Shown here in pieces: positions 2,955 to 5,963 of a stretch of DNA of 48,033 bases. The translations under genes and the position numbers were made by a program. Within the stretch, counting starts at the first letter, position 1. The number at the start of each line of letters is the position of its first letter. This DNA is from Actinomycetes bacterium. GTDB taxonomy: Bacteria; Actinomycetota; Acidimicrobiia; Acidimicrobiales; JAJZXF01. The stretch covers positions 1-48,033 of the forward strand of contig JAJYWA010000006.1 in NCBI GenBank assembly GCA_021791755.1. Direction: 5' to 3'. A model generated the notes under the pieces. It was not told where the DNA came from and ran no database searches. It saw only the letters and a list, made by a program, of their open reading frames with translations.

Positions 2955-3030
2955 CAAGAGGCGACGGTCCACCATTGCCGGACCTGCCTGGCGATTGTCG
3001 GTGGAAGCGTCATCGTGATAACCAAGATTG

Positions 3031-3116
3031 CCCCGACCTCCACCCACGATTGCTCGGCCCCGACCTCCACCCACGATTGCCCCGACCCAGACCCAGACCC
3101 AGACCCAGACCCAGAC
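3031..3116. repeat. Two copies of a 23-nt sequence followed by a hexanucleotide tract (CCAGAC)n
   Basis: ccccgacctccacccacgattgc at 3031-3053 and 3058-3080 (27-nt offset), then gac(ccagac)5 at 3084-3116. Confidence 0.9.
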
Positions 3117-3677: not shown

Positions 3678-3688
3678 GGTATTATACC
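3678..3688. promoter_or_regulatory. Palindrome GGTAT-T-ATACC just upstream of the fused TA ORF, candidate operator
   Basis: Perfect 5-bp arms around one central base, ending 4 nt before ATG at 3693. Confidence 0.4.
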
Positions 3689-3692
3689 CACG

Positions 3693-4325
3693 ATGGAACC
3701 ACTGGACATAGCGCAGGCCCAAGCGCGGCTTCCTGAAATTGTGCAGTGGGTAGCAAGCACATGGGGAAAGGTCCCAATCGCGGACCCGAGCCACGCGGTC
3801 GTTCTCGTGGTTCCAAGCGGGCTCTGGTACACGTACGAGGACACGCTCGATCTTCTCGGAGACGCCGAGGCCATGCGACGCATTCAGGTCGGAGACGATG
3901 CTATCCAGAACGGCGACTTCGTCACTCAACGCGAGGTCGTCTCAATGACGCCTGCCGCGGCGCAATCGCACCATGCAACAGCACCAACGGCGCCAAGACC
4001 CAGTGGTGCACACGCGCCAGGAACCCAACCTACATCGCAGCTTACGAGCACACCCTACGAACGGTGGCATCTCGTCCTCTCTGGTCCGGCTATGCGCGAT
4101 CTTCGGGTAGTAGAAGAACCCGCCCGTTCGCAGCTCCTATCTGTGATACTTGGCGAGCTACTAGACGACCCACGGCGCGCAGGAGTAGAGCTACGCGCCA
4201 GCCTCGCCAGACGACTGGCTCTCCGAGTCGCTGGGTACCGGGTCATCTATCGCCTCGACGCCGTCAAGCACGCGGTGCGCGTGATCGATATCGCCCGTGT
4301 CACACCGGCAGCCTCACCAGTCTGA
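3693..4325 (+). CDS. Single-ORF fusion of Phd/YefM-type antitoxin and RelE/ParE-type toxin
   Basis: N-term: MEPLDIAQAQARLPEIVQWV...AVVLVVPSGLWYTYEDTLDLLGDAEAMRRIQVGDDAIQNGDFVTQREVV (Phd/YefM-like). C-term: YERWHLVLSGPAMRDLRVVEEPARSQLLSVILGELLDDPRRAGVELRASLARRLALRVAGYRVIYRLDAVKHAVRVIDIARVT (RelE/ParE-like). A Pro/Ala/Thr-rich linker joins them. Confidence 0.7.
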   Translation: MEPLDIAQAQARLPEIVQWVASTWGKVPIADPSHAVVLVVPSGLWYTYEDTLDLLGDAEAMRRIQVGDDAIQNGDFVTQREVVSMTPAAAQSHHATAPTAPRPSGAHAPGTQPTSQLTSTPYERWHLVLSGPAMRDLRVVEEPARSQLLSVILGELLDDPRRAGVELRASLARRLALRVAGYRVIYRLDAVKHAVRVIDIARVTPAASPV

Positions 4326-5002: not shown

Positions 5003-5556
5003 ATGAGACCACAAACCATGATGAGCGAGGAAGAGCAAAACAAGTTCCTGGCAGCCCTTGAGGCCAACACGGAGCTCCGCGCAGCGGTTCAACGCGCATT
5101 GAAACTGAATGAATTGTTCACCCTGCCTGGCGAGATGGGCGATCTGGTCAAGTCCGTACAGCTGATGAACGCTGGCGTGAACGGCCTGATCAACCACGAA
5201 GCGGAGAGCCAACGAAGCCTCCACGCATTCACCGAGCAGGTGAGCAAGCTCGCCCAACAGGTCAGCAAGCTCACCGAGCAGCAAGGCATGACGGCAGGCG
5301 ATGTCGGTGCTCTGGCGCGACCACTAGGGAGTTGCTTGGGATCACGCAGAGTGGCTTCGAGGGGGTGCGATTCAGCTTCGAGGGGGTGCGAGTCGGCTTC
5401 GAGGGGTGCGGGCAGATGCCCGTGCTCTGGTCGCCAAGGTCACCGACCTTGGCCCGGGATATGACTGCTGGCTTTGGGAAGGCCAGAGCTGACATTGACC
5501 AGGTCAAGGACGACGTAACTGTCATCAAGGAGCATCTCGCCGGGTCAGCAAACTGA
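5003..5556 (+). pseudogene. Coiled-coil protein, decayed, with more than one apparent frameshift
   Basis: ORF 5003..5464 (EQVSKLAQQVSKLTEQQGMTAGDVGALAR) appears to continue in other frames as TTRELLGITQSGFEGV... and ARDMTAGFGKARADIDQVKDDVTVIKEHLAGSAN. Confidence 0.5.
5353..5413 (+). repeat. 21-bp tandem repeat, about 3 copies
   Basis: ggcttcgagggggtgcgattc / agcttcgagggggtgcgagtc / ggcttcgaggggtgcggg; the third copy has one G fewer. Confidence 0.9.
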
Positions 5557-5636: not shown

Positions 5637-5963
5637 TTGGTCAAGCGACCGGGCAGCAAGCCCCCACCTTCCCCAATGCCCAATCCAACGAGTCGCAAGA
5701 ACAGGTTCTGGATGGTGAACCCGGTCAACTCGAGCAGGGAGTGCGCTGTTTGCGGGTACACCAACGCCGCCAACAGGCACAAGAACAAGTTCCACTGCAA
5801 GCGCTGTCAGCACGATAGCCATGCGGACGTGAACGCCTCGGAGGTGATCTCGGCTCGTTGTGAGGACGTTGACGCCCTATGGGCTCAAGCAGGAGGGCAG
5901 GCGAACCTCCGGTCCAAGCCGAGGATGGGAAGGCGCGTGCAAGAGCGAGGCCATCGGACATAA
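5637..5963 (+). pseudogene. tnpB: TnpB (IS200/IS605- or IS607-type OrfB) C-terminal relic with zinc ribbon
   Basis: SRECAVCGYTNAANRHKNKFHCKRCQHDSHADVNASEVI matches the TnpB CxxC...CxxC ribbon followed by the D-x-NAS motif; no N-terminal body upstream. Confidence 0.7.

Follow-up and report, generated by a model that had tools for sequence, protein, structure and literature searches.

A conserved RelB-RelE antitoxin-toxin fusion that appears to lack both its catalytic and its operator-binding residues

Architecture and predicted structure of the fused gene

The window, that is, the whole analysed stretch of 48,033 nt, carries an ORF on the forward strand at 3693-4325 that encodes 210 aa in 210 codons with no internal stop. 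Residues 1-85 (3693-3947, +) constitute an antitoxin half of the RelB/YefM/Phd fold, assigned from profile and fold matches. They are followed by a flexible, Pro/Ala/Thr-rich linker of ~38 residues (approximately residues 86-123; 3948-4061, +), recognised by its poor conservation and low model confidence, and then by a RelE half (residues 124-210 plus stop; 4062-4325, +), assigned from sequence matches, Foldseek and a comparison of individual residues. This architecture agrees with the earlier note, which had read the ORF as a Phd/YefM-like antitoxin joined through such a linker to a RelE/ParE-like toxin.

With single sequences, the Pfam evidence was weak: the toxin half gave a sub-threshold match to ParE_toxin (0.005), and the antitoxin half gave no Pfam match. 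In a phmmer search against the PDB, residues 124-204 matched Mycobacterium tuberculosis RelE1 (9G12 chain A, 1.2e-8), and residues 5-82 weakly matched its RelB partner (9G12 chain C, 0.47). With a profile of six fused relatives, however, both halves reached significance, the toxin half with RelE1 (2e-13) and Rv2866 (4e-9), and the antitoxin half with Rv2865 (9e-11), RelB1 (1e-10) and YefM (2e-4), with Phd also matched. Thus, the profile check proposed in the earlier note bears out its assignment, the nearest proteins being M. tuberculosis RelB1/RelB2 for the antitoxin half and RelE1 for the toxin half. The profile search retrieved no PDB chain that covers both halves.

The AlphaFold2 model of the window protein has a pLDDT of 88 and a pTM of 0.77, with low confidence (pLDDT ~60) only around the linker, and the model of the relative in G122, which has a short linker, has a pTM of 0.84. 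Foldseek with the model retrieved the RelE chains 3g5o_B and 9g12_B at 1e-6, as well as RelB and YefM chains. Because a high pTM is obtained for two halves of equal size, the models suggest that the halves are held in a fixed relative arrangement. The structure prediction called for in the earlier note therefore yields two confident halves, while the intramolecular docking that it was meant to address is indicated indirectly, through the pTM.

Residues lost and kept in the two halves

The toxicity of RelE1 requires Arg60, Arg65, Arg85 and Tyr89, Arg85 being the proposed general acid, and it is abolished by R85A and by Y89A (PMC12620021). In the window protein, this set of type II RelBE catalytic residues is incomplete. 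Arg178 and Arg183 correspond to Arg60 and Arg65, but Val203 occupies the general-acid position, and the C-terminal helix bearing Tyr89 is gone. Among the fusions, an equivalent of Arg85 is present in 0/9, compared with 58 of the 60 free RelE proteins of related genomes (Fisher 1e-9, a value in which shared ancestry overstates independence). The position is instead occupied by V, V, V, W, W, T, I, M and N, and seven fused lineages kept diverging without the arginine. The C-terminal tyrosine is present in 1/9 fusions and 56/60 free RelE (Fisher 5e-7, with independence overstated in the same way), although the C-terminal residues of the fusions are hard to align and G122 has an HRY nearby. Arg60 is kept in 9/10 fusions and Arg65 in 6/10, so that binding to RNA or the ribosome may be possible.

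A proposal for RelBE1 is that the C-terminal helix of RelE is pushed aside by the helix of the antitoxin (PMC12620021). This displaced helix is the one absent from the fusions, which look as if RelE had been fixed in its inhibited state.

For the antitoxin half, Arg10 and Arg31 of YefM are essential for DNA binding (PMC4803016), and their columns were mapped by aligning a free antitoxin with YefM in HMMER. The Arg10 column is basic in none of six fusions (Q, Q, Q, G, Q, D) compared with 92% of free antitoxins, and the Arg31 column in one of six (D, D, V, V, V, R) compared with 97%; the window protein has Gln10 and Asp31. The toxin-binding helix is kept, and the residues that the fusions have in common with the free proteins are either structural or lie within this helix. 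New conserved residues specific to the fusions are Arg63, Gln72, Phe76, Glu166, Arg173 and Arg174. A less basic net charge of the N-terminal half was also considered as a sign of lost DNA binding, but free antitoxins are equally acidic and the measure is uninformative.

The earlier note offered three ways in which a fusion might work, namely linker cleavage, an internal start or a permanently neutralised toxin. The internal start, placed at the Met of VSMTPAAAQ, is not supported, as the two nearest relatives lack this Met. Cleavage of the linker may occur, but would release a RelE half without Arg85 and Tyr89. Judged by the missing catalytic residues, a permanently neutralised toxin is the best supported of the three.

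The upstream palindrome and the start site

Directly upstream of the gene lies the palindrome GGTATTATACC (3678-3688), with 5-nt arms and a 1-nt spacer, which the earlier note had compared to an autoregulatory operator. The palindrome is indeed there, but its operator role is not upheld. There are 79 repeats of this 5-1-5 type in the window, its symmetry score of 6/8 is equalled or exceeded at 73 of 580 background ATGs, and in G001 its right arm is broken (GGTATTATAGCC). Together with the loss of the operator-contacting Arg10 and Arg31 equivalents, a near-chance, unconserved palindrome leaves the fusion without the operator-binding residues and operator that accompany autorepression in type II RelBE modules.

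Inside the palindrome, 7 nt ahead of the ATG, lies TATTAT (3680-3685, +), a probable -10 box of a leaderless promoter. All ten fused genes have a TANNNT element that ends 6-8 nt ahead of the start codon, compared with 0.65% of ATGs in the window. Actinobacterial leaderless promoters are arranged in this way, with TANNNT just before the start. Based on this layout, the palindrome is better read as the -10 box of such a promoter than as an operator.

Free relB genes of the order (e.g., L073, L077, L086 and L049) often have an operator-like palindrome resembling GACTATAATTATGGTC directly before the ATG, overlapping the -10 box; in many of them, the -10 element is the same as in the fused genes but is embedded in a palindrome of greater length. 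The fused genes have no palindrome of this type, which further speaks against GGTATTATACC as an operator.

Distribution, origin and selection

A genome scan revealed the fusion in an actinobacterial MAG (L003, 33% identity), and a genome search revealed it in a relative of the same genus (56%). Across ~670 distinct genomes, covering the order and the relatives of fused genomes, ten in-frame fusions were found (G000, G001, G043, G048, G060, G122, G240, G663, G664 and G665) belonging to six families within this order; the G060 sequence is identical to that of L003, and the sequence of G664 passes into unknown bases at its 3' end. The order is rich in free relB-relE pairs. The earlier note had named separate genes in relatives, with this ORF produced by a sequencing error, as grounds for rejecting a fusion; ten intact fusions in different genomes rule out both a sequencing error and a chimera.

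Nine of the fused toxin halves form one clade with support of 100/99. The toxin half of G048 sits on a very long branch, and the AU test does not exclude it from the clade (p 0.50). In the antitoxin-half tree, a single origin received support of 30/0, which speaks neither for nor against it. Carriage on mobile elements was also considered: no relative was matched among plasmids and phages, and the sole match among viral contigs was one relative of the toxin half. Vertical inheritance is the simplest reading of this distribution.

Selection was assessed by comparing the window with G001 (NG86). The antitoxin half has a dN of 0.21 and a dS of 2.2, the toxin half has a dN of 0.26 with saturated dS, and the linker has a dN of 0.97. 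Between sister genomes, identity is 18% in the linker and 64% in each half. By this codon-level comparison, the antitoxin and RelE halves are under purifying selection, with dN/dS near 0.1, and the linker drifts.

Relation to known systems

M. tuberculosis RelBE1 (Rv1247c-Rv1246c, PDB 9G12) and RelBE2 (Rv2865-Rv2866, 3G5O) are the best sequence and structure matches to both halves and have the same folds in the same order. The fusion shares with such type II modules an antitoxin of the RelB/YefM/Phd fold and a toxin domain of the RelE (BECR-fold) type. In contrast, RelBE1 and RelBE2 are each encoded by two separate genes, as is usual for type II operons, while the fusion is one chain and a single open frame in ten genomes. 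Moreover, RelE1 is an active RNase with Arg85 and Tyr89, whereas the fusion lacks both of these residues as well as the DNA-binding arginines.

Fusions of antitoxin and toxin as such are already known. Passages of Gerdes 2025 (PMC11980606) describe 195 tabulated antitoxin-toxin fusions of the BECR fold, including YefM-YoeB, which like the present fusion have antitoxin-toxin order in a single gene. The mono-gene module recognised there, an antitoxin and a BECR-fold domain in one ORF, also describes the window gene. However, the table of that paper contains no antitoxin-toxin fusion of the RelB-RelE type, and the passages of its main text do not describe fusions that have lost their catalytic residues together with those for operator binding. 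In Ralstonia eutropha YP_293189 (yb_293189 in PMC4826407), a Phd/YefM-type antitoxin is likewise fused to RelE; according to passages of that paper, truncations are thought to abolish toxin activity, and inhibition by the antitoxin is also thought to be lost. Compared by this description, YP_293189 is one reported case, whereas the fusion here is a conserved, selected family that keeps the toxin-binding helix. EzeT and CapRel also combine antitoxin and toxin in one chain with inhibition in cis, as proposed for this fusion, but their toxin folds are unrelated to RelE and are still catalytically active. A conserved, selected RelB-RelE family lacking both sets of functional residues was not found in the literature searched.

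Proposed role and alternatives

We consider it somewhat probable that the gene is a RelB-RelE fusion of single origin, vertically inherited and doubly disarmed, that is locked in cis and serves as a non-nuclease scaffold. A RelBE-type operon would have undergone a single fusion, either in the common ancestor of several families or earlier, and would have been inherited since as a chromosomal gene. By its sequence, the fusion has kept the RelE fold and the toxin-binding helix and has lost the general acid, the C-terminal tyrosine helix and the operator-binding arginines. The antitoxin half may dock onto the RelE half of its own chain, occupying the groove that the absent C-terminal helix leaves free. 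Produced constitutively from a leaderless promoter, such a protein would neither cut RNA nor repress its own gene. It would instead be a scaffold or adaptor that works by contacting other proteins, perhaps exchanging partners with free RelBE pairs in the same cell, and would represent a domesticated toxin-antitoxin module rather than an addiction system.

A more specific version, plausible but short of probable, is that domestication turned the module into a housekeeping protein, conserved and passed on vertically, that lost RNase activity and operator binding after fusion and kept a remodelled interface (Arg63, Gln72, Glu166 and Arg173-Arg174). Its role would be independent of toxicity and perhaps tied to the LysR/GNAT/MurT-GatD neighbourhood.

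An unlikely alternative is an anti-addiction decoy, in which the fusion would tune the resident RelBE pairs by partner exchange, neutralising free RelE or titrating free RelB. Free RelB/RelE genes with mostly intact sites do coexist with the fusion in G001, G043, G240 and G000, and the toxin-binding helix residues are kept. However, any such exchange would first have to dislodge the partner bound in cis, and the fusion-specific residues Arg63, Gln72, Glu166, Arg173 and Arg174 suggest a private interface.

Two further possibilities seem improbable to a similar degree. One is a latent toxin, freed as an active RNA-cutting enzyme when a protease cuts the linker or degrades the antitoxin half, or when a ligand is sensed, as in CapRel or EzeT. 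EzeT and CapRel show that fusions of this kind can be functional, the linker is flexible and probably accessible, and Arg60 and Arg65 are mostly retained; nevertheless, Arg85 is lost in 9/9 and Tyr89 in 8/9 fusions, each essential in RelE1, and no common cleavage motif was seen in the unconserved linker. The other is a change of target, with the toxin half inhibiting, for example, gyrase, as do ParE toxins of the same fold. ParE toxins are toxic without catalytic residues, according to passages of PMC11980606, and the Pfam match is to ParE_toxin, but the closest proteins by both sequence and fold are RelE RNases.

Finally, a decaying remnant, suggested by the loss of catalytic and DNA-binding residues and by the truncated Ralstonia eutropha Phd-RelE fusion, which passages of PMC4826407 consider a possible dead end, is largely refuted and very improbable given the open frames in ten genomes, the purifying selection on both halves and the conserved neighbourhood.

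The domesticated scaffold favoured here bears on a wider debate, in which chromosomal toxin-antitoxin genes are held in the long run to be selfish, defensive or domesticated. This lineage combines a traceable fusion, the apparent loss of both activities and continued selection on the toxin fold, and thus makes domestication directly testable on one small gene, with free RelBE relatives as controls.

Gene neighbourhood

Orthologous LysR and MurT genes lie near the fusion in G060, G043 and G122, and MurT alone does so in G001, so that the MurT neighbourhood is conserved at 4/10 fusions. A GNAT gene adjoins the fusion in G043 and G122. The window genome has lost this neighbourhood, and its MurT sits on another contig.

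A search with Rfam found no functional RNAs in the window. The fused gene is flanked on both sides by short tandem repeats (3022-3116 and 5354-5410) with units of 27, 6 and 21 bp. Directly upstream of it lies a probable VapBC/FitAB pair (2354-2954, +), consisting of a FitA-like ribbon-helix-helix antitoxin (2354-2575, E 1e-4) and then a PIN-domain ORF within 2499-2951 (E 6e-4). A DUF6788 protein is encoded at 1114-1491 (+, E 4e-27). An ORF at 5637-5963 (+) has a Cys4 zinc-ribbon segment (ECAVCGYTN...CKRCQHDSHADVNAS) and may be a C-terminal remnant of a TnpB/OrfB transposase, which it resembles. In G060, MurT is apparently fused to GatD in an 851-aa ORF (L101:6510-9062, -), and in G000 and G001 there are two ORFs.
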